DNA of 64,000 bases from Bradyrhizobiaceae bacterium (GTDB taxonomy: Bacteria; Pseudomonadota; Alphaproteobacteria; Rhizobiales; Xanthobacteraceae). This document shows positions 13,667-35,858 of this stretch, piece after piece. The position numbers were made by a program, and so were the translations under genes. The notes beneath the pieces are model-generated. The model was not told where the DNA came from. It searched no databases and worked only from the letters and a program-made list of their open reading frames with translations. Within the stretch, counting starts at the first letter, position 1; each line of letters starts with the position of its first letter. The DNA lies in assembly GCA_020544565.1 (NCBI GenBank), contig CP078014.1, positions 2,234,016 to 2,298,015 on the forward strand. The letters are read 5' to 3'.

Positions 13667-13676
13667 GGTTTTGTCC

Positions 13677-13958: not shown

Positions 13959-13976
13959 CGCTAATACTAATGCAAT

Positions 13977-13990
13977 GCGTTAGCTAACGC
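13977..13990. promoter_or_regulatory. Palindrome upstream of higBA, candidate HigA operator
   Basis: GCGTTAGCTAACGC is a perfect 14-bp palindrome in the AT-rich gap between higB (minus) and the phage protease gene (plus). TA operators are usually such palindromes overlapping the promoter. It could also affect the protease promoter. Confidence 0.5.
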
Positions 13991-14012
13991 AACACATAAG
14001 TATTTCCGCTCC

Positions 14013-15299: not shown

Positions 15300-15325
15300 T
15301 CATGGAAACTTGAGGAGCCCCCGAC

Positions 15326-15433
15326 ATGCCTACACTGATCATGGCGCCGACGCTTGGCGACCTGCTCAAATACGAGCTCAATGGCAACTATAGCCGCGAG
15401 ACCGTTACCCTTATGGTGCGCCGGCCAACCTGA
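15326..15433 (+). pseudogene. Head decoration protein D, N-terminal remnant
   Basis: From ATG 15326, preceded by TTGAGGAGCC, the frame reads MPTLIMAPTLGDLLKYELNG then YSRETVTL, which is the start of lambda D-type decoration proteins. After about 28 codons it leaves the family and stops at TGA 15431. About three quarters of the gene is missing. The break coincides with the start of capsid-protein sequence in another frame. Confidence 0.75.
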
Positions 15434-15582
15434 TCGAGACCGTCAACACCATGGGGCTGCCGATCTATGCCCGCCAGATTGCGCGGCTGGACGGTAGCGC
15501 CATCGACGTCAAGACCGAGGCCTCGCCACTGCCGATCAACAAGCGACCGCGCCTCGCCGTCAAGATTACTACCAGCAACTAA
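15412..15582 (+). pseudogene. Major capsid protein E, C-terminal remnant
   Basis: In the frame ending at TAA 15580-15582 the sequence reads ANLIETVNTMGLPIYARQ and then SPLPINKRPRLAVKITTSN, the C-terminus of lambda E-type major capsid proteins. Only the last 55 or so residues of about 340 remain. The front of this gene and the rest of the upstream decoration gene are gone, consistent with one deletion of somewhat over 1 kb. The prophage cannot build its own capsid. Confidence 0.75.
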
Positions 15583-15588
15583 GCTATC

Positions 15589-15909
15589 GTGGTGGACGCA
15601 TTCACCGCGGCGATCGATGCGCTGTTCGCCGACCCGAATATTGCCCGCGTCGCGATCTGGCGTCCGGGCGGGGTGGGGTCGGGCGTCGCTGTTCGTGTCA
15701 CCGTACGGCGGCCCGACCAGATCGTCGGCTTTGGCGACAGCCGAGCAATCCTGCCGACGGTGCTCATCGATGTGCGGCGCTCGGAGGTTGCAGAACCTGC
15801 GAGCGGCGACACGGTCGAGTTCGATGGCGACACCTTTGAAATCATTGCGCCGCCCATTGCTGACAGCCTGCGGCTGGTGTGGGTCTGCGAGGCCTCATTG
15901 CAGGGTTGA
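15589..15909 (+). CDS. Phage head-tail attachment protein (probable)
   Basis: A 106-residue protein starting at GTG 15589 (VDAFTAAIDALFADPNIAR) and ending SLRLVWVCEASLQG. Size and position after the capsid gene match head completion/attachment proteins such as lambda FII. The family is not certain from sequence. It begins 6 bp after the capsid remnant stop and is followed by the DUF6441-like gene. Confidence 0.65.
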   Translation: MVDAFTAAIDALFADPNIARVAIWRPGGVGSGVAVRVTVRRPDQIVGFGDSRAILPTVLIDVRRSEVAEPASGDTVEFDGDTFEIIAPPIADSLRLVWVCEASLQG

Positions 15910-15913
15910 ACTG

Positions 15914-16588
15914 ATGCGCTTCACGTTGAAGGCCAACGATCTCGCTAAAATTCTCACTGACAACGAAATACAGGCAGCGCGCTCGGTCACCGGCGCCATG
16001 CGCGAGGTAACCGATGGGCTCAAGGGCGATCTCCGCGCCGATATCGTCGATGCCGGCCTCGGACGTCGACTCGCCAACACCTGGCGCGGCAAGACCTTTC
16101 CCGAGAGCGGCACAAGCCTCGATGCGGCTGCCTTTATCTGGTCGAAGGCACCGAACCTTGTCGACGTCTTCGATCGCGGCGTAACCATCCGCTCGAAGAA
16201 CGGTTTCTGGCTTGCGATCCCGACGCCGGCCGCGGGCGCGACTGGTCTGACGACGACCGGCGCTCGTGCACGGATTACGCCCGGCGGCTTCGAGCGGCGC
16301 ACCGGCATGCGGCTGCGCTTCGTCTATCGTCGCGGAAAGCCGTCGCTGCTGGTTGTCGACAACGCACGGCTGAGCAAACGAGGGCTGGCACGGCCGAACG
16401 CCGGTCGGACCCGCAACGGCGAGCAGTTCACCCGCCTGACAGGTCGATCGACCGTCGTCGTATTCATCCTGGTGCCGCAGGTCACGCTACGCAAGCGGCT
16501 CGATGTCGAGCCGATCGCACAGCGCTGGGCAACTCGACCGGCAAGGACGCAATCCTCGATAGTGACAGGAGAACATTCGCTACGGTGA
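15914..16588 (+). CDS. DUF6441-like phage structural protein, C-terminus probably altered
   Basis: A 224-residue frame from ATG 15914 (MRFTLKANDLAKILTDNEIQAARSVTGAM). It resembles the basic protein that follows the head-tail attachment gene in alphaproteobacterial phages, with SGTSLDAAAFIWSKAPNLVDVFDRG in the middle. The family pattern continues to LDVEPIAQRWA near 16530. The last 20 or so residues look unrelated, and a different open frame takes over there, so the end is probably a deletion joint. Expected downstream tail genes are absent. Confidence 0.6.
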   Translation: MRFTLKANDLAKILTDNEIQAARSVTGAMREVTDGLKGDLRADIVDAGLGRRLANTWRGKTFPESGTSLDAAAFIWSKAPNLVDVFDRGVTIRSKNGFWLAIPTPAAGATGLTTTGARARITPGGFERRTGMRLRFVYRRGKPSLLVVDNARLSKRGLARPNAGRTRNGEQFTRLTGRSTVVVFILVPQVTLRKRLDVEPIAQRWATRPARTQSSIVTGEHSLR

Positions 16589-20343: not shown

Positions 20344-20540
20344 AACGGCCTCCTTCGGTCTGATGCTGACAGTCATGCTCCGATCGCGGTGATCATCAAC
20401 TGAATTAGACGATCATTTTGTTGCTATTTTCGGGAGCGTCGCCGCGGATGATCGATCTCGCATGCGAGCAGGGATGAGCTATCGCGGCGATGTATGGGCT
20501 AATCGCCCACGGGCTTGAGAGGAATACTGTCGTGCAGGGC
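20344..20540. promoter_or_regulatory. Divergent intergenic region in the phage remnant
   Basis: This 197-bp gap separates the minus-strand small gene and DUF3489 operon from the small terminase gene. An AT-rich core at 20400-20435 (including GACGATCATTTTGTTGCTATTTT) could hold promoters. No clear operator was seen. Confidence 0.35.
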
Positions 20541-21329
20541 ATGAGCGAGCGCCAGTACGCCGCCCATGCCGGACTGTCGCGCGGCGCCATCCAGAAGGCG
20601 AAGACGGCCGGCCGGCTGATTCTCTATCCGGATGGCAGCATCGATGCGACGGCTTCAAATCGGCGTCGTGCGGAAACGACCGATCTGTCGAAGATCAGGA
20701 CGCCGTCCCAGCCAAAGCTCAAGCCGGTGTCTGAGGAAGCTGTAACCGCCGTTGGCGACACGCTGCGCGAACAGGGTTTGGCGGCACCGGCCGCTGGTAG
20801 CGGCACGACCTACCTGCAGGCCAAGACCGCCAACGAAGTGCTGAAGGCGCAGGAGCGGCGGTTGAAGCTGCAGATCTTGAGGGGTGAGCTGATCGATCGG
20901 GCACGCACCGAGATGCTGGTGTTCCGGCTGGCGCGCGAGGAACGCGATGCCTGGGTGACGTGGCCGGCACGGGCGGCAGCGTTGATGGCGGCGGAGCTGT
21001 CCGGCGAACTGGGTCAGGGCATCATGGTGGAGGCGGCGCTGATGCAGAAGGTTCTGGAAGCCCATGTCCGCAGCCAGCTTGGCAGCCTTGCGGAAATGGG
21101 CATCGGCAGTTTTTTTATTCATTCCAAACTGGGAAGGATCGCAATAATCCGTTTCATAAGGCGTGATACGCGCGCCGTATCACGCGCGCAGCAATTTGCT
21201 GCGCTGCAGTCTCATGACGGATCGCCGAAATCGCTGGAAACAAGGCAGAGCCGGTCGCGCCAGCGAACAACATCGCTCATACCCGCCGCGGCGAGCGGCA
21301 GGCAGCTGGCCTCGTGGCGCAACGTTTGA
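20541..21329 (+). pseudogene. Phage terminase small subunit (Nu1-like), 3' end replaced
   Basis: From ATG 20541 (MSERQYAAHAGLSRGAIQKA) the frame has an N-terminal helix-turn-helix for cos/pac binding and a C-terminal part with AREERDAWVTWPARAAALMA and EAALMQKVLEAHVRSQLGSL, like Nu1-type small terminases. Similarity fades at about 21108. The remaining 70 or so codons to 21329 (FFIHSKLGRIAIIRF...) look like read-through into unrelated DNA. In lambdoid phages this gene directly precedes the large terminase, which here is 11 kb upstream; see the permutation finding. It marks the right edge of the prophage. Confidence 0.7.
21162..21204. repeat. Two adjacent perfect palindromes at the prophage right edge
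   Basis: CGTGATACG-CGCGC-CGTATCACG (21162-21184) is followed at once by GCGCAGCAA-T-TTGCTGCGC (21186-21204). Both are perfect 9-bp inverted repeats. They lie just past the end of recognisable small terminase sequence. No T-run follows, so a simple terminator is unlikely. They could be a recombination end, an operator pair or a structured site. Confidence 0.6.
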
Positions 21330-21511: not shown

Positions 21512-22948
21512 TCACGATGCCGGACTGCCTTGCGACACGAACTTGGTGGCGAGATAGGCCTCCACCGCTTCAAGTCCGCCTTCGGAGCCGTAGCCTGAGT
21601 CCTTGACGCCGCCGAACGGCAACTCAGGCAGCGCCAATCCGTAATGATTGATTGACAGCATCCCGCTTTCAATCCCGGCCGCGAGGGCGGTGGAAGTCTT
21701 GACCGAGCGCGTATAGGCATAGGACGCAAGGCCGTATGGAAGCCGGTTGGCTTCCGTCATGACCTCGTCGAACTCCTTGAAGCGGCTCATCAGGGCGACG
21801 GGGCCGAACGGCTCTTCGTTCATGGCGCGCGCGGACTTCGGCACGTCGACAAGCACAGTCGGCTCGAAAAAGTAACCCTTGTTCTGGCTGCGCTTGCCGC
21901 CGGTCAGCGCCTTGGCGCCATTTTTGAGCGCGTCATCGACAAGAGCGCCGATCGCTGTCTGGCGTCGATCGTTGGCCAGCGGCCCGATGGTGACCCCTTC
22001 ATCAAGGCCGCTCCCCATCTTGAGAGCCTTCGTTCTCGCCATGAATTCATCGACGAACTGATCGTAGACGCCATCCTGAATCAGAAAGCGCGTGGGCGCG
22101 ATGCAGACCTGACCGGCATTGCGATATTTGCTGCCCGCAAGCACGCTGGCAGCGAACTTCACGTCAGCATCGTTGAACACGATCGCCGGCGCATGTCCGC
22201 CGAGTTCCATGGTGATGCGCTTCATGTGCGCGCCGGCGAGCGAGGCAAGCTGCTTGCCGACCGGAGTGGATCCGGTGAAGGAGACCTTGCGGATCACAGG
22301 ATGCGAGATCAGGTATTCCGAAATCTCCGACGGCACACCGTAAACCAGATTGACGACGCCCTTCGGCAGACCGGCATCGGTCAATACACGGATCAACTCC
22401 GCCGGAGACGCCGGGGTTTCTTCCGGCGGCTTGATCACCATCGAGCAACCGGCGGCCAGCGCCGCGCCAAGCTTGCGCACTGCCTGACTCATGGGGAAGT
22501 TCCACGGCGTGAACGCCGCGACCGGACCGACCGGTTCTTTCATCACGAGATTGTAGATACCTTCGCCACGCGCCGGAATGATGCGTCCATACGTGCGACG
22601 GCCCTCTTCGGCGAACCAGTCAAGGAAATCGGCGCATCCGAGAATCTCGATCTTGGCCTCGGCAACAGGCTTGCCCTGTTCGAGGGTCATCGTCGTCGCG
22701 ATTGAATCGGCGCGTTGACGCAACAACTCACCGGCCTTGCGGAGAATCACGGAACGATCGAGCGGCGACATCCTGCGCCAGGTCCGGAAACCGTTCGCTG
22801 CGGCATTCACTGCACGTTCAAGATCTTCGCGTTGAGCGTGAGCGACCTCCCCGATCTTTTCCTCGGTCGCCGGATTAACGACCGCGATCGTGCGTCCGGA
22901 CAGGCTGTCGCACCACTCACCATCGATAAAGAGCTGAACTTTGGTCAC
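21512..22948 (-). CDS. NAD(P)-dependent aldehyde dehydrogenase, succinate-semialdehyde dehydrogenase type
   Basis: A 478-residue ALDH-superfamily enzyme of normal length. Catalytic residues are in place: Asn150 (PWNFP), Glu249 (MELGGHAP) and Cys282 (GQVCIAPTR). The GabD-like pattern suggests it oxidises succinate semialdehyde or a similar omega-oxo acid; the exact substrate is uncertain. It is divergent from the ABC binding-protein gene, and the shared gap carries the palindromic operator at 23111-23122, linking it to the TetR cluster downstream. Confidence 0.88.
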   Translation of the reverse strand: MTKVQLFIDGEWCDSLSGRTIAVVNPATEEKIGEVAHAQREDLERAVNAAANGFRTWRRMSPLDRSVILRKAGELLRQRADSIATTMTLEQGKPVAEAKIEILGCADFLDWFAEEGRRTYGRIIPARGEGIYNLVMKEPVGPVAAFTPWNFPMSQAVRKLGAALAAGCSMVIKPPEETPASPAELIRVLTDAGLPKGVVNLVYGVPSEISEYLISHPVIRKVSFTGSTPVGKQLASLAGAHMKRITMELGGHAPAIVFNDADVKFAASVLAGSKYRNAGQVCIAPTRFLIQDGVYDQFVDEFMARTKALKMGSGLDEGVTIGPLANDRRQTAIGALVDDALKNGAKALTGGKRSQNKGYFFEPTVLVDVPKSARAMNEEPFGPVALMSRFKEFDEVMTEANRLPYGLASYAYTRSVKTSTALAAGIESGMLSINHYGLALPELPFGGVKDSGYGSEGGLEAVEAYLATKFVSQGSPAS

Positions 22949-23110
22949 GTGAATCCCCCGTTTGCGTTTCTACAAGCTCAATCGATGGGCCGTTGAGCTC
23001 ATCAATTCAGGTCTGATCATCGGCGCCCGCGGCTCTCTCTGCGATGCAAAATATGATGCGCCGCGAGCCCCATCGCGCCGGAAGTTACTTGACTTGTTCG
23101 CCTCTCAATC

Positions 23111-23122
23111 GCACGATCGTGC
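23111..23122. promoter_or_regulatory. TetR-cluster operator, site 1
   Basis: The perfect palindrome GCACGATCGTGC within TCGCACGATCGTGCAAATAA lies between the divergent aldehyde dehydrogenase and binding-protein genes, 32 bp before the TTG of the latter. Identical 12-bp cores occur at 26783 and 27630. Confidence 0.8.
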
Positions 23123-23153
23123 AAATAAAGCAATTGTGATGGGGAGGAAGGAA

Positions 23154-24251
23154 TTGTCACATCGCATCAATCGGCGCAAATCATCTCTGCTGACACTCGC
23201 GGCAGCGGTTGCAGGCAGCATGCTTGCCTCAGCCGCGTTCGCTCAGCCGCTTGAAGTCGTCAAGATCGGCTGGCCCGCCGGCTTCGCCTCCAATATGGCG
23301 CACCTGACATTCGGCAAGGAGCTTGGCCTCTTCAAGGACGAGAACCTCGACTACGAAATCGTCTCCATGCAGGGCACCTACCCTGTCATTCAGCAGATCC
23401 TCTCGGGCGGATTCCACACCGGCTATGTCGGCGTAGAAACCGTGGTCAATGCGCTGCAGCCCGGCGCCACGCCGATCCCGCTGAAATTCGTTTTCAACTA
23501 TACGCGGCAATCGATCTGGGAAATCGTCGTTCCCGAGTCCAGCCCGATCAAGAAACTCGCCGACCTGAAGGACAAGACGATCGGTATCGCCGGCCCGACC
23601 TTCGGCAACGTTCCCGTCACCAAGGCAGCGCTCGGCGCTGTCGGCATCCAGCCCAACCAGTTCACGTTCCTCACTGTCGGCACCGGCGGTCCGGCGTTCC
23701 GGGCGATGACCACCGGACAGATAGACGCCCTGAACCTGTGGGACACGATGCACGCAACTCTTGAAGCCACCGGTTTCAAACTGCGCGAACTCGAGCTTCC
23801 TTCCGAATTCCAGGGCAATCCAAGTCATGGATTCGCCGTTACCGACGATCTGATAAAGAACAACCCGGAATTCATTGCTCGTTTTGGCCGCGCCATCGCG
23901 AAGACCATCGTCGCCTGCGACGCCAATCTGGAGGAATGCATCCGGTCGTTCTGGCGGGCCTACCCGGCACAAAAGCCGCAGGGCCCCGAGAATGAGGCCA
24001 TGGCAAGAGAGATGAAGATCCTGTCGGCGCGCATGAAGAAACTGATGTACTTCGAGCCGGGTGAAAAGCCGCTGCTGGGCAGCTTCACCGATGCCCAGTG
24101 GAAAAGGGTCATCAACTCCCTCAAGCTCGGTGGCGTGATCAAAGTCACCGACCTGCCGATGGACAAGCTTTATACGAACCGCTTTGTGGCCGACTTCAAC
24201 AAATTCGATCGCGCGGACGTGATCAGGCGAGCCAAGGCTGCGACCAAGTAG
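23154..24251 (+). CDS. ABC transporter substrate-binding protein, NitT/TauT (SsuA/THI5-like) family
   Basis: A periplasmic binding protein of 365 residues from TTG 23154, chosen because GGGGAGGAAGGAA stands directly before it. An in-frame ATG at 23139 overlaps that site. The signal peptide is clear (MSHRINRRKSSLLTLAAAVA, cleavage after ASAAFA). The mature part is NMT1/SsuA-like (KIGWPAGFASNMAHLTFGKE). It should feed the ATPase and permease encoded at 27728-29385. A terminator follows at 24282. Confidence 0.9.
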   Translation: MSHRINRRKSSLLTLAAAVAGSMLASAAFAQPLEVVKIGWPAGFASNMAHLTFGKELGLFKDENLDYEIVSMQGTYPVIQQILSGGFHTGYVGVETVVNALQPGATPIPLKFVFNYTRQSIWEIVVPESSPIKKLADLKDKTIGIAGPTFGNVPVTKAALGAVGIQPNQFTFLTVGTGGPAFRAMTTGQIDALNLWDTMHATLEATGFKLRELELPSEFQGNPSHGFAVTDDLIKNNPEFIARFGRAIAKTIVACDANLEECIRSFWRAYPAQKPQGPENEAMAREMKILSARMKKLMYFEPGEKPLLGSFTDAQWKRVINSLKLGGVIKVTDLPMDKLYTNRFVADFNKFDRADVIRRAKAATK

Positions 24252-24281
24252 CCGTATCAGGTCAGGAACCCTCACAAACAA

Positions 24282-24311
24282 GCCGCCGACAAACTGTCGG
24301 CGGCTTTTCTT
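24282..24311 (+). terminator. Rho-independent terminator after the binding-protein gene
   Basis: A perfect 10-bp stem GCCGCCGACA / TGTCGGCGGC with an AAC loop, followed by TTTTCTTT, 31 bp after the stop. Confidence 0.9.
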
Positions 24312-24348
24312 TCGAGCAGGCAGAAGCGCCAGTATTGATGAGACAGCC

Positions 24349-24768
24349 TTAGGCCGGCTCGAACACCGGATAGTTCGAGGAGCCGGCCAGCACCCACGTC
24401 AGACGAACCGGCATGTCGATCTTGAGCGTTTTCGGATCGCAGTTGATGATGTTGGTCAGAATGCGCACGCCCTCCTCAAGCTCAACCGTCGCGACGACGT
24501 AAGGCTTCACATCCTTGAACGGCGGAGGCGCCTTGTAGGACAGCGAGAACGAATAGATCCGCCCCCTGCCGCTCGCCTCCCGCCATTCGAGATCGCGCGA
24601 ACCGGTATAGACGCTGACAGGCCGCGGATAGAACTGATACTTGCCTGCCTTCGGGCAGTATTGAAGCATCAGTTTCTTGTCGTTGGCGCCATCCCAGAAC
24701 GGCTTGCTGAAGTTCAACTGGATCGGTGCGGGACGTTGTCCTGCGAGAGGATCGGATTCGATCGACAT
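24349..24768 (-). CDS. DUF35 OB-fold acyl-CoA-associated protein with a degenerate zinc ribbon
   Basis: A 139-residue protein from ATG 24768, whose codon overlaps the thiolase stop (TAATG). The C-terminal OB fold (GRGRIYSFSLSYKAPPPFKD, then PYVVATVELEEGVRILTNII) is typical. The rubredoxin-like ribbon that usually has two CxxC pairs is reduced to a single Cys in QYCPKAGKYQFYPRP, so it probably binds no zinc. DUF35 proteins form complexes with thiolase-like enzymes, as the gene coupling suggests here. Confidence 0.85.
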   Translation of the reverse strand: MSIESDPLAGQRPAPIQLNFSKPFWDGANDKKLMLQYCPKAGKYQFYPRPVSVYTGSRDLEWREASGRGRIYSFSLSYKAPPPFKDVKPYVVATVELEEGVRILTNIINCDPKTLKIDMPVRLTWVLAGSSNYPVFEPA

Positions 24769-25937
24769 TATGCGGCCTCCAAAATCAATGCGGTGCTTGA
24801 GCCCCAATTGCGTCCATACGGGATCCAGCCGATGCCGGTGACGATGGCATTCGAATGATCCTTCACCTGGCGCGCGCCGGCTTCACCGAACAACTGACGC
24901 AGCGCTTCGGACAGATTGTGCGCGCCGCCCGCAAGCCCCGCTTGGCCCGCCGAGATCTGGCCGCCACCGGTATTCAACGGAAGATCGCCGCGATAGCTCA
25001 TATCGTGCTCGTTGACGAACTGGCAGCCGCGCCCGGTTTCGCAGAAGCCGAGATGTTCGAGCTGCATGACGATAGCAATGAGAAAATCGTCGTAAGGCTG
25101 GAACATCTTGATATCGGACGGCTTCATGCCTGCACGCTCGAATGCGCGCTTGCCCGCGGCGCGGTGACCGCCCTCGGTAATATCGGGCGTCGGGTTGGTT
25201 TCAAGGTAGTTGACCCGCTCGCCATATCCGATCGGGTGAACCATCTTCTTCGCGCCCATTTTCTTGGCGCGCTCCGTGGTGGTGACGATGAACGCACTGG
25301 CGCCATCGCACACCATGACACAGTCCAGCATGCGGATCGGATCGGAAATCATCGGCGATGCGAGATAGTCCTCGACCGTAATGGGCTTGCGCAGCTTGTC
25401 ACAGGCAAGGTCGTTCATCAGCGCATGATTGCGCTGCGTGACCGCGAGTTTGCCAAGCGCCTTGGAATCCAGCCCATACTGATGATCGTAGCGCTGGCTG
25501 ATCAACGCAAAATATCCCGGAGGGCCCATAATGCCCATCGGGTACTGAAATTCACCGCGGAACGCGCCGATGGCCTGCTTGTTCGCGGTGGATTGCGGAT
25601 CAGAGGCGATGACGACCACCGTTTCGCACAACCCGGCCTTGATGGCCGCGGCCGCGCGCGCGATGTTTCCGGACGCAGATGCACCGCCCAGATCCGTGAC
25701 CTGACACCAGTCCAGTTCAAGCCCGAGATAAGCGGACAGGATCGGCCCGTAAAACGGATTGCCCGCATCTGCAAAGCTCGACGACACCGCCATGCCGTCG
25801 ATCTCGGATTTTTCAATTCCCGCATGCGCGAGCGCGCCGGCCATGGCTTCGCCGGCCAGATCGTAAACGCTGCGCCCCGATCGAAACTCGATCTTTGTCT
25901 CGGCATAGCCGATGATTGCAATATCGCGATTTATCAT
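24768..25937 (-). CDS. Thiolase-like (SCP-x/lipid-transfer type) acyl-CoA enzyme
   Basis: A 389-residue member of the thiolase superfamily in the subfamily that pairs with DUF35 proteins. Where classical thiolases have the nucleophilic Cys this one reads TDLGGASASGN (residues 81-91), with no cysteine. The C-terminal motif is GGGQISAGQAGLAGG rather than GHPxGxSG. It may bind or cleave an acyl-CoA without the standard cysteine chemistry. It lies between the DUF35 and enoyl-CoA hydratase genes in one minus-strand operon. Confidence 0.85.
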   Translation of the reverse strand: MINRDIAIIGYAETKIEFRSGRSVYDLAGEAMAGALAHAGIEKSEIDGMAVSSSFADAGNPFYGPILSAYLGLELDWCQVTDLGGASASGNIARAAAAIKAGLCETVVVIASDPQSTANKQAIGAFRGEFQYPMGIMGPPGYFALISQRYDHQYGLDSKALGKLAVTQRNHALMNDLACDKLRKPITVEDYLASPMISDPIRMLDCVMVCDGASAFIVTTTERAKKMGAKKMVHPIGYGERVNYLETNPTPDITEGGHRAAGKRAFERAGMKPSDIKMFQPYDDFLIAIVMQLEHLGFCETGRGCQFVNEHDMSYRGDLPLNTGGGQISAGQAGLAGGAHNLSEALRQLFGEAGARQVKDHSNAIVTGIGWIPYGRNWGSSTALILEAA

Positions 25938-25964
25938 TGATTTTCCTCGGTGCTCCTCGACCTA

Positions 25965-26723
25965 CTATTTGCCCGCAAAGACGGCGGCTCGTTTTTCGGA
26001 AAACGCCTTGACACCTTCCCGCATGTCCGCCGTGCCAAACATCAACTGATAGCCTCGCCGTTCCAGCTTCAATCCGGCATCAAGCGAGGTATCAAGACCC
26101 GCGTTCACCACTTCCTTGATCTGCTGAGCCGCCAAAGGCGCGAGCGTTGCGATCTGCGCCGCGATCTCAAGCGCGCGCGGCTCGCAATTGCCAGAAACGA
26201 CCTCGCTGACGAGGCCCATGCGATGAGCATCGTTTGCGCTGATGAATGCGCCTGTCAGCAACAGATACATCGCGTTGTATTTTCCCACCGTCCTCGGCAG
26301 ACGCTGCGTGCCGCCGGCACCGGGGATCAGGCCGAGCTTGATTTCGGGCTGGCCAAACTTGGCTTTGTCGTTGGCGATGATGATGTCGCATTGCATCGCG
26401 AACTCACACCCCCCGCCCAGCGCAAAACCGTTGACCGCCGCAATAACCGGCTTCGGGAAATCCATGACGGCGCGGGTCGTATAAGCCTCGATCGCGCCGA
26501 CAACATCACGGCCGGCCTGCTCCTGGATATCCGCACCCGCCGCGAAAGCCTGCTCGTTTCCCGTCAGCACAACACAGCGCACTTCCTCATCTTCCGTCAA
26601 TTTGGCGAAGTGCATGTGAAGAAGCCGGCGCACTTCCGTGTTGAGCGCATTGCGCACGTCCGGACGATTGAAACGCACAATGGCGATGTGGGGTGAGGGT
26701 CTTTCAACAAGGACGACGGACAT
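25965..26723 (-). CDS. Enoyl-CoA hydratase/isomerase family protein
   Basis: A 252-residue crotonase-fold protein starting MSVVLVERPSPHIAIVRFNR. The oxyanion-hole residues lie in QAFAAGADIQE and GFALGGGCEFAM, and the catalytic Glu region in PEIKLGLIPGAGGTQRLPR. It should hydrate or isomerise an enoyl-CoA in the same pathway as the thiolase and ligase nearby. It heads the ECH-thiolase-DUF35 operon. The operator at 26783-26794 lies 60 bp before its ATG. Confidence 0.9.
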   Translation of the reverse strand: MSVVLVERPSPHIAIVRFNRPDVRNALNTEVRRLLHMHFAKLTEDEEVRCVVLTGNEQAFAAGADIQEQAGRDVVGAIEAYTTRAVMDFPKPVIAAVNGFALGGGCEFAMQCDIIIANDKAKFGQPEIKLGLIPGAGGTQRLPRTVGKYNAMYLLLTGAFISANDAHRMGLVSEVVSGNCEPRALEIAAQIATLAPLAAQQIKEVVNAGLDTSLDAGLKLERRGYQLMFGTADMREGVKAFSEKRAAVFAGK

Positions 26724-26782
26724 GGCGAACGGTCTTTCTTTTGATCTTGCTTCATGCAGATCACAACCCGATACCATAATTC

Positions 26783-26794
26783 GCACGATCGTGC
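26783..26794. promoter_or_regulatory. TetR-cluster operator, site 2
   Basis: GCACGATCGTGC inside ATTCGCACGATCGTGCAAAT, upstream of the enoyl-CoA hydratase operon. Flanking bases match the other two sites (A/T-rich AAT arms). Confidence 0.8.
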
Positions 26795-26810
26795 AAATAA
26801 TTGAAAGGCA

Positions 26811-26837
26811 AAAAAAGCCGGCTCTTTCGGAGCCGGC
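26811..26837 (-). terminator. Rho-independent terminator after the tetR gene
   Basis: A stem GCCGGCTC/GAGCCGGC with a short loop at 26817-26837. Read on the minus strand it is followed by a run of seven Ts. It lies 25 bp past the tetR stop and insulates it from the hydratase operon promoter. Confidence 0.9.
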
Positions 26838-26861
26838 GCCTCTATTATTGCGATCAGGACA

Positions 26862-27524
26862 TCAGTTGATCTCGGACAACTCTCGAACGGATACGTATCC
26901 GGCCAAGCCGTCTGATCTCGGCTTAAGCCCCTCCATCGCTTCGAAGTATTCTTCGAGCAGCTTCTCGCAATGCGCGCGGCTTTCCGTATCCGGACGCAAT
27001 ATCTGCCGCATCACAAGGCCATGGACGAAAATCAGAAGATGCTCGGAAGCGTGGTCGGCCTTGAGATCGGCCGGCAATTCGCCGGCCCTGATCGCGTTCT
27101 CGATCAGCTTCCGCCAGAACCCAAGCTGTTTTTCGAACCGACGATTTTGATGCTTGCGCAGTTCGGCGCTTCTCGTGCCGGCGGCCGCATAGTTGATCCA
27201 GAACCGCCAGAACCGGTCGTTCGACGACCTGAAAATGTGACTGAAAGCAAAGACCTTGAGTTGCGCCAGCGGCGATGAACTCGGCTCTTCCTCGGAAGGC
27301 GTCTCGTAAGCGGCCTGGAGCGCCGCCATGATCAGCTTCTGCTTATTGCCAAAATGATAGTTGATCGTGCCGGTACTGACTTCCGCCCGTTCCGCAATCT
27401 GCCGCATACTCGCGCCATCAATTCCGAACTCCGAAATGACCTCGTAAACGGTGCCAAGCAAGTCCTTGCGTCTTTGAACTCGACCCGGCCGCTTGCCAGC
27501 AAGGGTCTTTGATTTTGTTCTCAT
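26862..27524 (-). CDS. TetR-family transcriptional regulator
   Basis: A 220-residue repressor with the helix-turn-helix at about residues 20-65 (IDGASMRQIAERAEVSTGTI, NYHFGNKQKL). The C-terminal domain is of the type seen in regulators of acyl-CoA or aromatic catabolism. It is divergent from the ABC-ligase operon, with an operator palindrome in the gap. The three identical palindromes around the cluster make it the likely repressor of all four transcription units and of itself. The inducer is probably an acyl-CoA or the transported acid, by inference. Confidence 0.9.
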   Translation of the reverse strand: MRTKSKTLAGKRPGRVQRRKDLLGTVYEVISEFGIDGASMRQIAERAEVSTGTINYHFGNKQKLIMAALQAAYETPSEEEPSSSPLAQLKVFAFSHIFRSSNDRFWRFWINYAAAGTRSAELRKHQNRRFEKQLGFWRKLIENAIRAGELPADLKADHASEHLLIFVHGLVMRQILRPDTESRAHCEKLLEEYFEAMEGLKPRSDGLAGYVSVRELSEIN

Positions 27525-27629
27525 GTTCGAAATATCCAGTTCACGAACCGTCTTTGATCGGCGGCTATTGCATTGTGCGACAATGTATCAGTTTTGCCGC
27601 TCAATAAACCTACCCTTCTGAAATTATTT

Positions 27630-27641
27630 GCACGATCGTGC
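27630..27641. promoter_or_regulatory. TetR-cluster operator, site 3
   Basis: GCACGATCGTGC inside ATTTGCACGATCGTGCGAAT in the 203-bp gap between tetR and the divergent ABC-ligase operon. It is placed to control both. Confidence 0.85.
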
Positions 27642-27727: not shown

Positions 27728-28603
27728 GTGGCCAGGAAGTCGCGGACACTGCGTGAGAGGCTCAAGGTCGCGTCAGATATGCTGAACCCCGATCAAACCA
27801 GTCGCGGACCCGGCGCAGCACTGAATCCGGTGCTCTCGATCAACCAGATGAATCTGGTTTATCATTCAACGCGTGGTCCGATCACCGCCATTCGCGATCT
27901 CTCGTTCTCAATCCGGAAGGGGGAATTCGTTTCCATTCTGGGGCCGTCGGGTTGCGGCAAATCGACTCTGCTGAAAATCGTTTCCGGGTTGCTGCGTCCG
28001 ACATCCGGCAATGTTGTCCTGGCCAATGTCGAGGTCAAGGGGCCGCGGCCGGACATTGGAATCGTCTTCCAGCAGCCGACGCTGCTGCCCTGGAAAACCG
28101 TTCTGGAGAACGTTCTCGTTCCCATCCGGGCCATGAGGCTGCCGGTCGCCGAGTACAAGGATCGCGCGCACGATCTGTTGCGCCTCGTCGGCCTGGGCGA
28201 CTTTGTGAGTCACTATCCATACGAATTGTCCGGCGGCATGCAGCAGCGCGTCGGCATCGCGCGCGGCCTTATTCATGACCCCGCGATGCTGTTGATGGAC
28301 GAGCCGTTCGCTGCACTCGATGCGATGTCGCGCGAATTCATGATGGACGAACTGCAGCAGATCTGGATGACAACCGGAAAGTTGGTCCTGTTCATCACAC
28401 ATTCGATCCCCGAGGCTGTCTATCTTTCGGATCGCGTCCTCACCCTCTCGCCGCGCCCAGGCCGCGTTATCGACGACATCAAGATCGACCTGCCCCGCGC
28501 GCGCAATGTCGAGACCATGGGGCAATCCGCATTTGGTGAATACGCGACGCACCTCAGGGCACTGTTCAAGTCAAGCAATCTGCGATCGACGGGGCCGGCA
28601 TGA
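27728..28603 (+). CDS. ABC transporter ATP-binding protein, NitT/TauT type
   Basis: A 291-residue ATPase (GTG start at 27728; an ATG at 27779 would shorten it by 17 residues). It has Walker A GPSGCGKST, Q-loop VFQQPTLLPW, signature LSGGMQQRVGIARGL and Walker B LLMDEPFAALD. It energises uptake with the permease encoded next (4-bp overlap) and the binding protein at 23154. Confidence 0.92.
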   Translation: MARKSRTLRERLKVASDMLNPDQTSRGPGAALNPVLSINQMNLVYHSTRGPITAIRDLSFSIRKGEFVSILGPSGCGKSTLLKIVSGLLRPTSGNVVLANVEVKGPRPDIGIVFQQPTLLPWKTVLENVLVPIRAMRLPVAEYKDRAHDLLRLVGLGDFVSHYPYELSGGMQQRVGIARGLIHDPAMLLMDEPFAALDAMSREFMMDELQQIWMTTGKLVLFITHSIPEAVYLSDRVLTLSPRPGRVIDDIKIDLPRARNVETMGQSAFGEYATHLRALFKSSNLRSTGPA

Positions 28604-29385
28604 CAAGATTTCGCTGGATTGAAATCGGCCTCTCCGTGGCTTTCTTCATCGCAACGCTTCTGGTGTGGGATCTGTCGGTCCGCGTCTTCAAGGTCCCGGC
28701 CTATCTCGTTCCTGCCCCGCTTGCCGTCGGCGGGGCCCTCGTCGACGGACTGGTCCACGGAACCTTCTATCCGCACATCGCCGCCACGCTCCACGCGGTG
28801 GTCGTCGGCTATGTGCTCGGCTGCGTTCTCGCCATCGTTATCGGCGCATTTCTCGCCGAGGTTCCGATCATCGAGCGAGCCCTGATGCCCTATATCGTCG
28901 CGCTCCAATCTATGCCGAAGGTCGCACTCGCTCCCCTCATCATTGTCTGGTTCGGATTCGGCATATCCTCCAAGATCGTTCTGGTCGCGCTGATCTGCTT
29001 CTTTCCGGTGTTTATCAACACCCTGGTCGGCATCCGATCCGTCAATCCGGATATCGTGAACCTGTATCGCGCATTCAGCGCTTCGCGATGGAATATCCTG
29101 CTCAACGTCAAGCTCCCCGCGTCTGCCTCTTCCATTTTCGCGGGTTTGCAGATCAGCGTCGCCATGGCGCTGATCGGCGCGGTGGTCGGTGAATTCATCG
29201 CCTCGAAGGCCGGCCTTGGAAACCTGCTGCAGGCTTCATCCATGACCATGGACGTCGCCACCATGTTTGCGGTGGTGATCGTGCTCGCCGCCATCGGCGT
29301 GATCGGGAACCAGATTCTACAATACCTGCACCGCAAGGTGGTCTTCTGGGAAAACCGAACCCATGTTGCAACGGAAGGCACGTGA
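28600..29385 (+). CDS. ABC transporter permease, NitT/TauT type
   Basis: A 261-residue membrane protein with about six transmembrane segments and the BPD_transp_1 EAA-like loop (NLYRAFSASRWNILLNVKLPASASSIFAGLQ). ATG 28600 overlaps the ATPase stop. Its own stop overlaps the GTG of the ligase, so the three genes are translationally coupled. Confidence 0.92.
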   Translation: MTRFRWIEIGLSVAFFIATLLVWDLSVRVFKVPAYLVPAPLAVGGALVDGLVHGTFYPHIAATLHAVVVGYVLGCVLAIVIGAFLAEVPIIERALMPYIVALQSMPKVALAPLIIVWFGFGISSKIVLVALICFFPVFINTLVGIRSVNPDIVNLYRAFSASRWNILLNVKLPASASSIFAGLQISVAMALIGAVVGEFIASKAGLGNLLQASSMTMDVATMFAVVIVLAAIGVIGNQILQYLHRKVVFWENRTHVATEGT

Positions 29386-31007
29386 GCCGTGCGCCTGCGG
29401 TGCATTCGCGCAATCCATTCAGCAAGACGAGTCCAATGAGCCGTTCCGCGCAGAACGTATTTGACGGCGGCAGCGCCGAGAAACTGCTGGCATCCATGCC
29501 GCCACGGCTGGCGGGACTGGTCCAACGACAGGCGATGGTCGCACCCGACAGGCGTGCGCTGATTTCGGGCGACAAGACCCTCACCTATGCCGAGCTATGG
29601 CAAGCGATTGGCCGCGCCAAGGAGTTGTTGAAAGCCGCAGGTGTTGTCCCCGGCGATCGCGTCATGATCGTGAACGAGAACTCCATCGCGGCCGTAACAT
29701 TCATTTTCGCAGCAACCGATCTCGATGCATGGGCGAGCCCCATCAACGCACGCATGTCCCCACGGGAAATCGATGCATGCCGCACTTTCAGCGGTTGCCG
29801 TACCGTCGTCTATACGGTCGGAGATTCGCCCGCCGCCGCAGACCATGCGTCGCGCGCGCAGGCCCGTGCGCATGACGATCCCGTTTTCGGCAAGGTTGCT
29901 TTCGCACCGACGGACGTGAACGCCCGCGCCGAACCCGTCTATGCGGAAAAGGAACGACAGACCGCGATCCTGCTGTTTTCATCAGGAACGACGGGGGCGC
30001 CGAAGGGCGTTATGCTCAGCCATCAGGCCATCATGTATATGGGCGGCAACATGGCGGAGCTGCGCAAGATCACACCCGACGACATGTTCTACAATATCGC
30101 GCCGCTCAGCCACGTCATCGGGTTCGGCGCGATGCTGACCACCGCGATTTGGGCCGGCGGAACGACCGAACTCGTGACGCAATTCCGCCCGGACAATTTC
30201 GTTGCCGCGCTGCAGGCGAACCGCATCAGCTACGTGATGGGCGTTCCGACGATTTTCGCACGGGTGCTCGAATACGCGAAGGCCAACGGCCTCTCGCTCC
30301 GTTCCGATCGCCTGCGCTTCATTGCCGTCGGAGGCATGCCGCTCGACCTGACGTTGAAATCGCAGATCGAGGCTGCGTTTGGCGTCGAGATCGGCAATTC
30401 CTATGGCATGACGGAAATGGCGCCGATCACACGATCTGCCGGCGCGACATCCGGCAGCACCGTCGGCGTGCCGCAACCGGGTATCAAGATTCGCATCATG
30501 CGCGAGGACGGCCAAAGCGCCGCGGTCGACGAGCCCGGCGAAATATGGGTCAAAGGCCCTAACCTCATGCTGGGTTACTACAAGAACGACGCGGCCAACG
30601 AGGATGTCAGGCGCCCGGACGGATTCATGACCACCGGCGACATCGGATCGATGGACCAGGACGGCAACCTGTCATTGGTGGGCCGGACCAAGGACGTCAT
30701 CATCCGCAGCGGGTTCAATGTCTATCCCATCGAGGTGGAAGCCGTGCTGTCGCAGGTGCCGGGTGTCGCGATGGTGGCCGTGGTCGGCCGCGCCGCGGGG
30801 GATAACGAGGAGATCATCGCCTACGTTCAGCCGGCAGTGGGTCGCCAGCTCGATATCGCGGAACTTGAGGCGTGGGCGAGAGAGAATCTCACCGCTTACA
30901 AGCGGCCCAAGGAAATCATTCTGACCAACGAATTGCCGATTGGGCCGACGGGCAAGATCCTGAAATCAAGGTTGAAGGCCGATCTTGCGAGCGGTCATAA
31001 ACACTAA
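29382..31007 (+). CDS. AMP-dependent acyl-CoA synthetase/ligase
   Basis: An ANL-superfamily enzyme of 541 residues if GTG 29382 is used (GTGA overlap), or 523 from ATG 29436. Motifs are P-loop LLFSSGTTGAPKGVMLSH, SYGMTEMAPI, the adenylation motif GFMTTGDIGSMDQDGNL, and the C-terminal catalytic Lys in GPTGKILKSRLK. It activates the imported acid to its CoA thioester, feeding the hydratase and thiolase-like enzymes. The acid itself is not identifiable. Confidence 0.9.
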   Translation: MSRAPAVHSRNPFSKTSPMSRSAQNVFDGGSAEKLLASMPPRLAGLVQRQAMVAPDRRALISGDKTLTYAELWQAIGRAKELLKAAGVVPGDRVMIVNENSIAAVTFIFAATDLDAWASPINARMSPREIDACRTFSGCRTVVYTVGDSPAAADHASRAQARAHDDPVFGKVAFAPTDVNARAEPVYAEKERQTAILLFSSGTTGAPKGVMLSHQAIMYMGGNMAELRKITPDDMFYNIAPLSHVIGFGAMLTTAIWAGGTTELVTQFRPDNFVAALQANRISYVMGVPTIFARVLEYAKANGLSLRSDRLRFIAVGGMPLDLTLKSQIEAAFGVEIGNSYGMTEMAPITRSAGATSGSTVGVPQPGIKIRIMREDGQSAAVDEPGEIWVKGPNLMLGYYKNDAANEDVRRPDGFMTTGDIGSMDQDGNLSLVGRTKDVIIRSGFNVYPIEVEAVLSQVPGVAMVAVVGRAAGDNEEIIAYVQPAVGRQLDIAELEAWARENLTAYKRPKEIILTNELPIGPTGKILKSRLKADLASGHKH

Positions 31008-32586: not shown

Positions 32587-35061
32587 CTAAGACACCACCG
32601 CGTCCGTCAGATCCCGGCTTCGCGATTTTTTCATGCCGATGTCGGAAGTCCCTGCCCCCGTTGAGGTCAATGCCAATTCGGCGGCATTGAGCGAAGCACG
32701 ATAGCGGTCATCGTGCGCGTCGCCGTAAAGGGTTGTCCGCTGCCGCGGCGTGCGATTCATGCTGCGGATAAGGCTCTCCATCTCCAGCGGCGCCATTTCA
32801 TGGCCATGCTGGGCGCCGGCCGAGCGAGAGATGGTCTCATCCATCAGCGTGCCACCGAGATCGTTGACGCCGGCCTGCAGACACGCGCGAACGCCGGATT
32901 CACCAAGCTTGACCCAGGATGTCTGGATATTGGGCACCAGCGTATGGAGCGTCAGGCGCCCGACGGCATGCATAAGCACCACCTCCCGGAAGGTCGGCCC
33001 CTTGCGCGACCGGCCCTTGAGATAGATCGGCGCTTCCATATGCACAAAAGGCAACGGCACGAACTCGGTAAATCCACCCGTCTCGGCCTGCAGATCGCGA
33101 ATATGCAGCAGATGCCGCGCCCAATGATCATAGCGATCGACATGACCAAACATGATGGTGGCGGTGCTGCGCAGACCCGTGCGATGCGCAGCCGTTATCA
33201 CCTCCAGCCATTCCGCCGTCTTGATCTTGTCGGGACAGAGGATCGCGCGGACTTCATCATCGAGGATCTCTGCCGCTGTTCCCGGCAGCGTTCCGAGACC
33301 TGCCAGTTTCAGCTCGTGCAGGAATTCGCCAACCGAAATGCCGAGTGTCTTGGCTCCCTGAAACACCTCCAGCGGCGAAAAGGCATGGATATGCATCTCC
33401 GGCGCGTAGTCCTTCACCGTGCGGCAGATCGCGAGATAGGTCGCGCCGGTATAGGATGGATGGATACCACCCTGCATGCAGACTTCGGTCGCGCCGCGAT
33501 CCCATGCCTCGCGGACACGCCTGCCGATTTCCGCATGCGGCAGGTCGTAAGGCTTGCCGCGCAGGTTCTCCGCCAGCTTTCCCTTGGAAAAGGCGCAGAA
33601 CTGGCACTTGAAATAGCAAATGTTGGTGTAGTTGATGTTCCGGGTGACGACATAACTGACCGTATCGCCGTTGACGTCTCGGCGCAGTTCGTCGGCCGCA
33701 CGGCAGATCGCGGTAAACTCGCCGTCCTCGGCGGCGAACAGCGAAACGATCTCATTTTCGTCGAGCCGTTTTCCTGACTGCGCCTTGGCCAATAGGCCAT
33801 CAACATTGCTCCCCTTGATCGCGGGCGCAGGCGGAGCCGCGCGCAACAAGGCGATGTCATGTACCGGCGGCTCCGACGTAGCGCCGGGACACCAGTCATC
33901 AAGGCGCGGCCAGCCATTGCCATCGACAAAGCCGAGCAGCGCCGTTTGCAGCGACCTGTCCGCCCAACGCTCGCTGTGCCGGGCATAGGAGGGATAGATC
34001 GCCAATCGCTCGACCAGCTTCTTGCCGCACTGGGCGGTCGCTTCCTGCAGACGGGTCAGATGCGGCCAGGGCGCTTCAGGATTGACGTGATCAGGCGTCA
34101 CCGGCGACACGCCGCCCCAATCGTTGATCCCGGCCGCGACAATCATGTCCAACACGCCCGGGCTGAGATTGGGGGGCGCCTGGATGTTCATGTCCGGACG
34201 GAACAGCAGACGCGCAAGCGCGATCGTCCACAGATGTTCCTCCAGCGGCGCCGCTTCGACATCCGCCATGCGCGTATCCGGCTTCGGCCGGAAGTTCTGC
34301 ACAATGATTTCCTGGATATGGCCGTAGCGTTCGTCGAGCGCGCGCAGTGCAAGCAGTGACTCGATACGCTCCTCGCGCGTCTCGCCGATGCCGATCAATA
34401 TCCCCGTCGTGAACGGCACCGCCTGCTGGCCAGCGAGTTCGATCGTCCGCAGGCGCGCTGCAGGATCCTTGTCCGGCGAACCGAAATGCGGGCCACCACG
34501 CTCGCACAAACGCGCCGACGCGCTCTCCAGCATGATCCCTTGCGAGATCGAGACCTTCCGCAACGCCGCGAGATCGTCTGCCTCCATGAGCCCCGGATTG
34601 AGGTGGGGAAGAAGACCGACTTCCTTGAAAACAGCGCGCGCGACGTCTTCGAGATAGGCGAGCGTCGTCGGATAGCCCATCGCCTGCAGTTCGTCCTGAG
34701 CATGGCGGTAGCGCAGCTCCGGCTTGTCGCCGAGGGTGAACAGCGCCTCCTTGCAGCCGGCGGCATGGCCGGCCCGCGCGATCGCCAGAACTTCATCTAC
34801 CGTCAGATAGGCGCGTTGCCCTTTGCGCGGCGCATGCGCAAACGTGCAGTAGTGACAGACGTCGCGACACAACTGCGTCAGCGGAATGAAAACCTTGCGG
34901 GAAAAGGAGATCTTGTGGCCGTGAGCCTCGTCGCGCAACGACGACGCGAGGCGCATCAGATCATCAAGCGAGACATCATCGACAAGGCTCATCACCTCGC
35001 AGGACGAAATGTCACGACGGCGGAGCAGATCTGAAAGCTGTCGATCAGCGGTGACCTTCAC
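32587..35061 (-). CDS. fbiC: FO synthase (fused CofG-CofH), F420 biosynthesis
   Basis: An 824-residue bifunctional radical SAM protein. The N-terminal CofG half has Cys65, 69 and 72 (CRDVCHYC); the C-terminal CofH half has Cys482, 486 and 489 (CYFKCQFC). Together they make FO, the 8-hydroxy-5-deazaflavin chromophore of F420, from tyrosine and 5-amino-6-ribitylaminouracil. Both clusters are intact and the length matches fused FbiC proteins of actinobacteria and proteobacteria. It is the last gene of the long minus-strand operon, 25 bp after cofC. Confidence 0.96.
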   Translation of the reverse strand: MKVTADRQLSDLLRRRDISSCEVMSLVDDVSLDDLMRLASSLRDEAHGHKISFSRKVFIPLTQLCRDVCHYCTFAHAPRKGQRAYLTVDEVLAIARAGHAAGCKEALFTLGDKPELRYRHAQDELQAMGYPTTLAYLEDVARAVFKEVGLLPHLNPGLMEADDLAALRKVSISQGIMLESASARLCERGGPHFGSPDKDPAARLRTIELAGQQAVPFTTGILIGIGETREERIESLLALRALDERYGHIQEIIVQNFRPKPDTRMADVEAAPLEEHLWTIALARLLFRPDMNIQAPPNLSPGVLDMIVAAGINDWGGVSPVTPDHVNPEAPWPHLTRLQEATAQCGKKLVERLAIYPSYARHSERWADRSLQTALLGFVDGNGWPRLDDWCPGATSEPPVHDIALLRAAPPAPAIKGSNVDGLLAKAQSGKRLDENEIVSLFAAEDGEFTAICRAADELRRDVNGDTVSYVVTRNINYTNICYFKCQFCAFSKGKLAENLRGKPYDLPHAEIGRRVREAWDRGATEVCMQGGIHPSYTGATYLAICRTVKDYAPEMHIHAFSPLEVFQGAKTLGISVGEFLHELKLAGLGTLPGTAAEILDDEVRAILCPDKIKTAEWLEVITAAHRTGLRSTATIMFGHVDRYDHWARHLLHIRDLQAETGGFTEFVPLPFVHMEAPIYLKGRSRKGPTFREVVLMHAVGRLTLHTLVPNIQTSWVKLGESGVRACLQAGVNDLGGTLMDETISRSAGAQHGHEMAPLEMESLIRSMNRTPRQRTTLYGDAHDDRYRASLNAAELALTSTGAGTSDIGMKKSRSRDLTDAVVS

Positions 35062-35086
35062 GTCTCAATCCTTTGCCCCAGCGGGC

Positions 35087-35836
35087 TCATTGGCGGGTCG
35101 CAAGCGGCACGCTCTCGCTCCGGGGCAGGCTCGCGCCCGCAAGGTAGCCAACCTCATGCCAATCCTCATGAGCGGACCATTCCATTCGGCGGCTTAATCC
35201 CAGCGAGCGTAAATACGCATCCGTCCGAGTCTTCGTGCACAATTCGAGAAATTCGACGAGATGGCGCGGTTCATCGAGATCGAGCCCCAGCCGGCCATTC
35301 ATCACCACAACCGGACGAAGACCACCCTGGTTGGCGACCTGAATATGCCGTACGAAGCTGTCGGACCCGAAGCACGGCGCAATCCGTCCAGGAACATCGC
35401 ACGCCAGCGCATTGGTGCCGCCATCGCGAAGTGCCGGCGCAATCGCTACCCCCGTCTTTCTCACCGCGGCGAACAACGCAACGATATCCGCCGGAAGGAT
35501 GCCCGGCACATCGCTCGGCAAAGCAACTACCGCGCCCCCTCGCCGGCTCGCCACATCCACAAAGCCGACCTTGACCGCGGCGTTCGTGCCGGCGGCACCA
35601 TGATCGTCAATGACGACGACACCCAATTGCCGGGCATAGTTCGCGACCTCATCGGCGCTGGTGACAACCGCGACATTGCGGAGCCCGGGCACGCCGAGAG
35701 CCGCATCGAGCACATCACCCAACATCGTCCATGCCAATTTTGCCCGCTCCGCAACGCTCAGCAACGGGGACAGCCGCTGCTTCGCACCGTCGAAGGACTT
35801 CACCGGCACGATCACCCATGCGTCGGACTCGATCAC
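35087..35836 (-). CDS. cofC: 2-phospholactate (or related) guanylyltransferase CofC
   Basis: A 249-residue nucleotidyltransferase from GTG 35836, with GGAG seven bases upstream. It opens [26 protein letters not shown], the CofC signature of the GT-A fold with the metal/GTP loop. It makes the GPP-activated C3 acid for CofD. Homologues use 2-phospholactate, phosphoenolpyruvate or 3-phosphoglycerate; which applies here cannot be told from sequence. It lies between cofD and fbiC. Confidence 0.9.
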
Positions 35837-35858
35837 AATGCATCTCCGTAACAGGCGA

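Follow-up and report, generated by a model that had tools for sequence, protein, structure and literature searches.

What is the function of a short palindrome that stands three times, letter for letter, between the genes of what looks like one catabolic cluster? This question is raised by a stretch of 64,000 nucleotides from Bradyrhizobiaceae bacterium (GenBank assembly GCA_020544565.1, contig CP078014.1, positions 2,234,016 to 2,298,015 of the forward strand), which is called the window hereafter and whose features are collected in Table 1. An earlier note, made from the letters alone, had proposed that the palindrome, the 12-mer GCACGATCGTGC, marks a TetR regulon for an acid or acyl-coenzyme A (CoA) pathway with a thiolase-like step. 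Genome comparison strongly supports a local TetR regulon with the palindrome as its putative operator. The fuller picture, in which a TetR-family repressor controls itself and three further units of a pathway for import, CoA activation and aldol-type cleavage of an organic acid, is judged from sequence to be probable.

GCACGATCGTGC has three exact copies in the window, none more at one mismatch and ten more at two mismatches. All three copies are intergenic, as the earlier note had it: one lies between the genes of the aldehyde dehydrogenase and the binding protein, one between the hydratase start and the 3' end of tetR, and one between tetR and the ABC transporter ATPase gene. The window contains 29 distinct perfect 12-bp palindromes, among which GCACGATCGTGC alone reaches three copies, the next highest count being two. 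A first-order Markov model expects 0.027 copies in the window, 1.8 in the genome and only 0.0019 in the 4.5-kb stretch that holds the three, so the probability of three copies there is about 1e-9 for a stretch that was picked after the fact. The genome scanned (4,127,363 bases in one contig, 98% complete) contains four copies in total, and the palindrome is rare outside the cluster. The fourth lies within the gene of ribosomal protein L21 (Pfam Ribosomal_L21p, E 5.9e-33) and was rejected as an additional regulon target because of this position inside a coding gene. When the flanks are included, as had been proposed for a genome scan, the site NTTNGCACGATCGTGCNAANNA at up to three mismatches is found at seven places off the locus, the best with two mismatches and the other six with three; all seven lie within stop-to-stop frames of at least 150 codons, which is weak coding evidence in G+C-rich DNA. 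The "A/T arms" described earlier are common to the three sites but they are not symmetric, since each of them, taken in one orientation, reads TCGCACGATCGTGCAAAT, in which one edge is always C and the opposite edge A. In the literature outside subscription papers and supplements, GCACGATCGTGC was not found in print.

Relatives of the TetR are few. With its own genome counted, they were found in 6 of 200 relatives and in 9 of 391 genomes of the family, a profile search gave 2 of 398 genomes of the phylum (its own and G530), and on plasmids the TetR had no match at E up to 1e-20. A scan of named genomes gave 45 loci, of which the best five (at least 46% identity) were used, the other 40 matching only part of the DNA-binding end. 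In four genomes (G001, G005, G077 and G530) the genes for the TetR, hydratase, aldolase, OB protein, binding protein, ABC components and ligase stand in the same order, and sites stand at the same three promoters; together with the window these represent three alphaproteobacterial genera, G077 and G530 belonging to two genera other than the window's own. Of the 15 alphaproteobacterial sites, window included, 12 match exactly and the other three deviate at one or two positions. Furthermore, Cupriavidus numazuensis and Cupriavidus sp. LEh25, whose TetRs are 46-48% identical, have four sites between them, three of which are exact; each genome has one before the hydratase operon and one in the gap that separates tetR from an aldehyde dehydrogenase gene. 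Schlegelella koreensis (Rhizobacter koreensis in the taxonomy listing, Burkholderiales; TetR 50% identical) has a single site, which differs at one position and immediately precedes the hydratase operon; it is the sole match of TNGCACGATCGTGCNA at one mismatch or fewer in the 5.6-Mb genome. Over these eight genomes, 15 of the 20 operators are exact, GCAC and GTGC never vary and all changes are confined to the middle four bases.

When a weight matrix is built only on the 15 alphaproteobacterial sites, the five betaproteobacterial ones reach scores of 19.4-34.9. The 20 operators score at least 25.9 on the matrix that the same operators built, and the top score is 8.4 in the stretches fetched for eight aldolase clusters that lack a match to the window TetR (L096-L099 and L154-L157, two of them in the window's genome). 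Taken together, G001, G005, G077, G530 and the two Cupriavidus genomes contain 12 exact copies of the 16-mer TNGCACGATCGTGCNA, every one of them in the cluster; at one mismatch there are some off-cluster matches in G005, G077, G530, G749 and both Cupriavidus. No exact TNGCACGATCGTGCNA was found in G109, G527, G749 or G486, and TTNGCACGATCGTGCNAA was found in none of 288 other alphaproteobacterial genomes drawn across the class without the cluster-bearing relatives. When the three intergenic stretches of five genomes are aligned, the operator falls in the best-conserved 18 columns each time, with 18, 16 and 16 invariant columns against means of 3.4, 3.9 and 6.4. The regulon of the earlier note is thus upheld at the same promoters in three alphaproteobacterial and two betaproteobacterial genera and is not seen in the eight clusters without such a TetR, whereas its thiolase is not upheld, as described below.

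The aldehyde dehydrogenase had also been counted as a member, and this found support. The G530 gene is 90% identical and has the same divergent arrangement, the G001 gene is 91% identical and belongs to a colinear block that runs divergently from that site, and in Cupriavidus the operator lies between tetR and the aldehyde dehydrogenase gene. It speaks against membership that G005 and G077 have no such gene near the cluster and G077 none genome-wide at E up to 1e-120, but the idea of a bystander was dropped given G001, G530 and a second cluster of G530. This second full cluster (L165, 5865-14000) has its own TetR (47% identical) and an 80% identical aldehyde dehydrogenase, with TCGCACAAATGTGCAAAT and TCGCACGATTGTGCTATT in tandem upstream of the binding-protein-hydratase-aldolase-OB genes and TTCGCACAAGTGTGCG upstream of the ligase. 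Similarly, G028 and G749 (TetR 41-42% identical) have palindromes such as TCGTACG-NN-TGTAC upstream of the aldolase and the binding protein. These changed palindromes were located by eye and with the matrix, score from 3.7 to 20.2 and count for less as evidence; at L077 a seemingly unrelated place scores 12.9, above both palindromes.

Which reactions would such a regulon control? The proposed order is import of an organic acid, CoA activation and enoyl-CoA hydration, after which the thiolase-like protein and its DUF35 partner would cleave the 3-hydroxyacyl-CoA by a retro-aldol reaction into acetyl- (or propionyl-) CoA and an aldehyde, and the released aldehyde would be oxidised by the aldehyde dehydrogenase. 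The crotonase fold of the hydratase is clear (PF00378, 229.5 bits), and its GGGCE and GQPE motifs, which we take to be those of the two catalytic Glu residues of enoyl-CoA hydratase, are visible. The best solved relatives of the thiolase-like protein are 9myr (E 5.9e-64), 4u4e and 6ok1 (E 1.1e-44), and 9myr is taken as CtSal, since its code is given in PMC12329534 and YDCY is present in the chain. As stated in the accessible part of that paper, CtSal uses Tyr302 and Cys304, Gln347 and Gln352 may stabilise Cys304, changing Cys304 to Ala, Ser or His abolishes the activity, Ltp2 uses Tyr294 and Tyr344 together with the His in YDHF, and Gly stands where SCP-2 thiolases hold the nucleophilic Cys (PMC12329534).

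In an alignment read by hand, Gly85, Tyr282, Gln327 and Gln332 of the window protein align with Gly89, Tyr302, Gln347 and Gln352 of CtSal; that is, Gly85 replaces the nucleophilic Cys of a thiolase, and the catalytic Tyr of the YDxF/Y motif is present as Tyr282. YDDF, both Gln and the Gly are kept in all 13 rows of one alignment and in all 35 rows of a second (30 loci for 45 family matches and five fetched stretches, three rows repeating a protein). The thiolase-like step of the earlier note consequently gives way, as the nucleophilic Cys is missing and the protein is closest to CoA-dependent retro-aldolases. Because of the Gly in place of Cys and the kept YDDF and Gln residues, the thiolase-like/OB pair is probably not a thiolase, and the likeliest reading is that it acts as Sal does, Asp standing in for Cys; owing to the same Gly and the closeness to Sal and Ltp2, the hydratase, aldolase and aldehyde dehydrogenase would form an order like that of Shy-Sal-Sad. 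The relation to Sal and Ltp2 is judged by sequence only, the AlphaFold model, made from 7 rows, having a mean predicted local distance difference test (pLDDT) value of 46.7.

Some residues fit this reading less well. Asp284 takes the place of the Cys (Sal) or His (Ltp2) that the known aldolases require, Gln332 stands at the place of the second Tyr of Ltp2, and 27 of the 35 rows carry a Cys beside the Gly, where the window's group has Ala. In addition, the OB partner has the OB_ChsH2_C domain, but only the first Cys of the four zinc-ligand positions is left in 13 of 13 rows. Two features that define Sal and Ltp2 are thus missing from the pair, which for this reason is classed as neither. It is conceivable, at somewhat less than an even chance, that the YDDF protein and a zinc-free OB partner constitute a third, undescribed class of retro-aldolase for non-steroid acids, distributed in alpha- and betaproteobacteria and on plasmids for 2,4-dichlorophenoxyacetic acid (2,4-D) degradation and having its own TetR lineage, whose operator would have changed from GCACG-NN-CGTGC to GTACG-NN-YGTAC in step with the regulator. 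No published description of a YDDF aldolase type was found in the literature delimited above, and the seven papers there that mention YDDF are, by title, on other subjects.

The best of the competing explanations leaves the regulon as it is and makes the pathway an ordinary β-oxidation, in which the pair cleaves a 3-ketoacyl-CoA, a hydroxyacyl-CoA dehydrogenase is encoded elsewhere and the target of the aldehyde dehydrogenase is a different portion of the substrate. The family names (acetyl-CoA acetyltransferase or thiolase) agree with this, the relatives of the protein include benzoylsuccinyl-CoA thiolase, whose DUF35 subunit is likewise related, and the relative on plasmid pJP4 is read as a β-ketoadipyl-CoA thiolase in the accessible part of PMC6449761, although the YDDF motif argues against that assignment. 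Still, the Cys at the nucleophile position is missing in every row of both alignments, the nearest solved relatives of known function are aldolases and no hydroxyacyl-CoA dehydrogenase was found among the 20 window proteins scanned by Pfam, so β-oxidation is rather unlikely, though it deserves to be kept in mind.

As for the regulator, the TetR is a clear family member (PF00440, 46.9 bits, cut-off 24; PF13977, 47.2 bits, cut-off 27) that passes none of the 16 NCBIfam cut-offs listed. Could the palindrome be the site of a different regulator, with its nearness to tetR a coincidence? Several observations weigh against the TetR assignment. Relatives of the TetR in G109 (64% identical, L076) and G527 (73%, L166) have no pathway genes nearby, and these two genomes have no site match genome-wide at one mismatch or fewer; these TetRs may be copies that serve another purpose, or else evidence that regulator and site are separable. 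The Schlegelella tetR has no site nearby despite the site before the hydratase operon. G028 has one exact TNGCACGATCGTGCNA outside its cluster and only changed palindromes at the cluster, where the best matrix score falls on a seemingly unrelated place. The flanks of the window (5191-6090), of G005 (L074) and of C. numazuensis (L031) contain LysR genes, though the cluster itself has none, which leaves room for another regulator. On the other side, the TetR is the sole regulator inside the cluster, the site lies upstream of tetR in five alphaproteobacterial clusters and both Cupriavidus, no site is close to the LysR genes of the window and G005 loci, and the clusters with more distant TetRs show changed palindromes. 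STGTINYHFGNK, which is taken as the TetR recognition helix, is identical in the Afipia-type and Cupriavidus regulators and is also found in the G109 TetR. A different regulator is thus improbable.

With the TetR as the regulator, repression would proceed as follows. The protein would bind the 18-bp operator TCGCACGATCGTGCAAAT through the half-sites GCACG and CGTGC and repress its own gene, the divergent aldehyde dehydrogenase and binding-protein genes, the hydratase-aldolase-OB operon and the ABC-CoA-ligase operon. In the bound state it would block RNA polymerase, since probable core elements of the promoters coincide in part with the operator, and a pathway intermediate would release it, most likely a CoA thioester in view of the pathway. 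By the author's reading, a 17-bp spacer from CTTGACT would set the -10 element at 23112-23117, inside operator 1, and the -35 and -10 positions at operators 1 and 3 fit steric-block repression together with autoregulation. A count that speaks against this is that of the sigma-70 scan, which did no better than on shuffled sequences (3 found against a mean of 1.9). The TetR could instead be an activator, or a repressor at some promoters and an activator at others, and the asymmetric edges of the site, whose orientation relative to the genes varies between promoters, would suit this. TetR regulators mostly repress, and the operator overlaps or sits within probable core promoter elements (partly the author's reading), which makes activation as improbable as a different regulator. 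That the palindromes are repeats without a regulatory role, born of chance or of recent DNA duplication, is suggested by the identity of the 12-mers but is hardly credible, for the surrounding sequences differ while the sites stay conserved across genera and two classes, and chance origin was rejected by rarity and conservation.

The substrate hints conflict. The aldehyde dehydrogenase is closest to α-ketoglutaric semialdehyde dehydrogenase (5x5t), and its Arg158 and Arg276 are equivalents of Arg163 and Arg281 of AbKGSADH, which were placed at the substrate by docking, according to the accessible part of PMC5385487. Cys282 and Arg158 are present in 6 of 6 aligned rows and Arg276 in 5 of 6, being missing in the Bosea enzyme; both Cupriavidus enzymes (41% identical) keep both Arg residues. 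The enzyme scores 497.4 bits against a cut-off of 646.35 for the NCBIfam SSADH subfamily. The kept semialdehyde-type arginines favour a carboxylated aldehyde as its substrate and speak against a cinnamate-type acid. An aromatic (cinnamate-type) acid is suggested by three other features: in G001 the block between the operator and the aldehyde dehydrogenase gene contains a cytochrome P450 that, among solved structures, comes closest to CYP199A enzymes, a UbiD/UbiX pair lies beside the Bosea cluster, and the nearest solved chains of the CoA ligase include one deposited as a feruloyl-CoA synthetase (8wev), next to one deposited as a fatty-acyl-CoA synthase (8weu). CYP199A enzymes act on para-substituted benzoic acids. 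The colinear G001 block (L109, 3667-13999) comprises genes for the CYP199A-like P450, a ferredoxin, a ferredoxin reductase, a branched-chain-type ABC transporter (partly by reading), a short-chain dehydrogenase/reductase and the aldehyde dehydrogenase, and it is divergent from the binding-protein gene across the operator.

Table 1. Genes, putative operators and promoter elements of the cluster, in window positions
Feature	Position	Strand	Evidence
Aldehyde dehydrogenase, 478 amino acids, α-ketoglutaric/succinic-semialdehyde dehydrogenase type	21512..22948	-	Pfam Aldedh E 5.7e-161; Cys282, Arg276, Arg158; best solved relative 5x5t, 623 bits
Probable -35 TTGACT of the binding-protein promoter	23089..23094	+	CTTGACT invariant in 5/5 aligned genomes; -35 assignment inferred, without a tool prediction
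Operator 1 (putative)	23111..23122	.	Exact palindrome; 162 bases to aldehyde dehydrogenase start, 31 to binding-protein start; 18/18 columns invariant, 5 genomes
Periplasmic binding protein, NMT1/SsuA type, TTG start	23154..24251	+	Pfam NMT1 E 1.8e-21
DUF35/ChsH2-type OB-fold partner, degenerate zinc ribbon	24349..24768	-	Pfam OB_ChsH2_C E 8.4e-24; zf-ChsH2 21.6 bits, below cut-off 23.2
Thiolase-superfamily protein, probable retro-aldolase, 389 amino acids	24768..25937	-	Gly85 at nucleophile position, Y282-D283-D284-F285, Gln327, Gln332
Enoyl-CoA hydratase (crotonase)	25965..26723	-	Pfam ECH_1 E 5.2e-68
Operator 2 (putative)	26783..26794	.	59 bases upstream of hydratase-aldolase-OB operon; 16/18 columns invariant, 5 genomes
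TetR-family regulator, 220 amino acids	26862..27524	-	Pfam TetR_N E 2.4e-12, TetR_C_6 E 2.9e-12
Operator 3 (putative)	27630..27641	.	105 bases to tetR start, 86 to listed ABC ATPase start; 16/18 columns invariant, 5 genomes
Promoter-like -35 and -10 flanking operator 3	27651-27646 (-35), 27628-27623 (-10)	tetR strand	Sigma-70 scan
ABC transporter ATPase, start codon uncertain	27728..28603	+	Pfam ABC_tran E 1.2e-35
ABC transporter permease	28600..29385	+	Pfam BPD_transp_1 E 4.5e-30
Acyl/aryl-CoA ligase, start codon uncertain	29382..31007	+	Pfam AMP-binding E 4.1e-74

Several neighbouring features of the window were also recorded. A GntR/aminotransferase-type regulator is encoded at 3703-5127, outside the cluster. 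At 7491-9002 on the minus strand, one 503-amino-acid frame combines the front portion of an amidohydrolase with a TctC receptor; in G005 the two are encoded by separate genes, with about 800 extra bases. Phage genes recognised by Pfam (terminase large subunit GpA, lambda-type portal, S49 peptidase and DUF6441) occupy 9735-16588, between the amidohydrolase/TctC block and the aldehyde dehydrogenase gene; the similarity of the window to G001, G005 and G530 stops near 9686 and returns near 21.1-21.5 kb. The frame at 20490-21326 has no Pfam match. At 32587-36821 on the minus strand there are radical SAM/CofH_C, CofC and CofD genes of the kind used in coenzyme F420 synthesis, and a 62% identical relative of the radical SAM gene adjoins a second aldolase cluster in the window's genome (L154).

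A guess from a single window has thereby become a testable regulon with a defined operator, a regulator and a gene list in eight genomes. The "thiolase"-named YDDF protein group is present in 37 of the 248 genomes of the family searched, and the present results suggest that this group, including the relative on the model plasmid pJP4, cleaves its substrates by retro-aldol chemistry with a residue unused by the characterised enzymes. If this is true, pathway assignments in degraders of 2,4-D and aromatic acids would be corrected and a new aldolase scaffold would be at hand.

KstR, PaaR and LiuR represent TetR regulons that are local, autoregulated and devoted to the catabolism of acyl-CoAs or aromatic acids, and the present system resembles them in having one TetR with palindromic sites at its own and neighbouring catabolic promoters; to KstR the window TetR has a weak profile match. 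Shy-Sal-Sad is a bile-acid side-chain pathway in which Sad is the aldehyde dehydrogenase. With this system of Comamonas testosteroni, as presented in the accessible parts of PMC12329534 and PMC11321319, the window shares the order of hydratase, thiolase-fold aldolase with DUF35 partner and aldehyde dehydrogenase, and with Sal it shares the Tyr, the two Gln and the Gly for the nucleophilic Cys. However, Sal has YDCY and the window protein YDDF, the hydratase is of the MaoC type there and of the crotonase type here, the OB partner of the window is, unlike in the Sal system, a separate protein with one of the four zinc ligands, and no steroid-ring genes were recognised among the 20 window proteins scanned. 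Ltp2-ChsH2 of cholesterol degradation (6ok1) likewise has the thiolase fold, the DUF35 partner and the catalytic Tyr of YDxF, whereas the His of its YDHF is Asp in the window protein and its Tyr344 is replaced (by Gln332, via the CtSal alignment). Plasmids pJP4 (L099) and pDB1 (L098) carry a 46-49% identical YDDF protein, annotated as a thiolase, with an OB partner and a CoA ligase beside tfdA-type genes; their clusters have an annotated TetR-family gene that does not match the window TetR at E up to 1e-8, and no operator. As a small autoregulated TetR regulon the system is of a familiar kind, and its central enzyme appears to be a new variant within a known type of aldolase.

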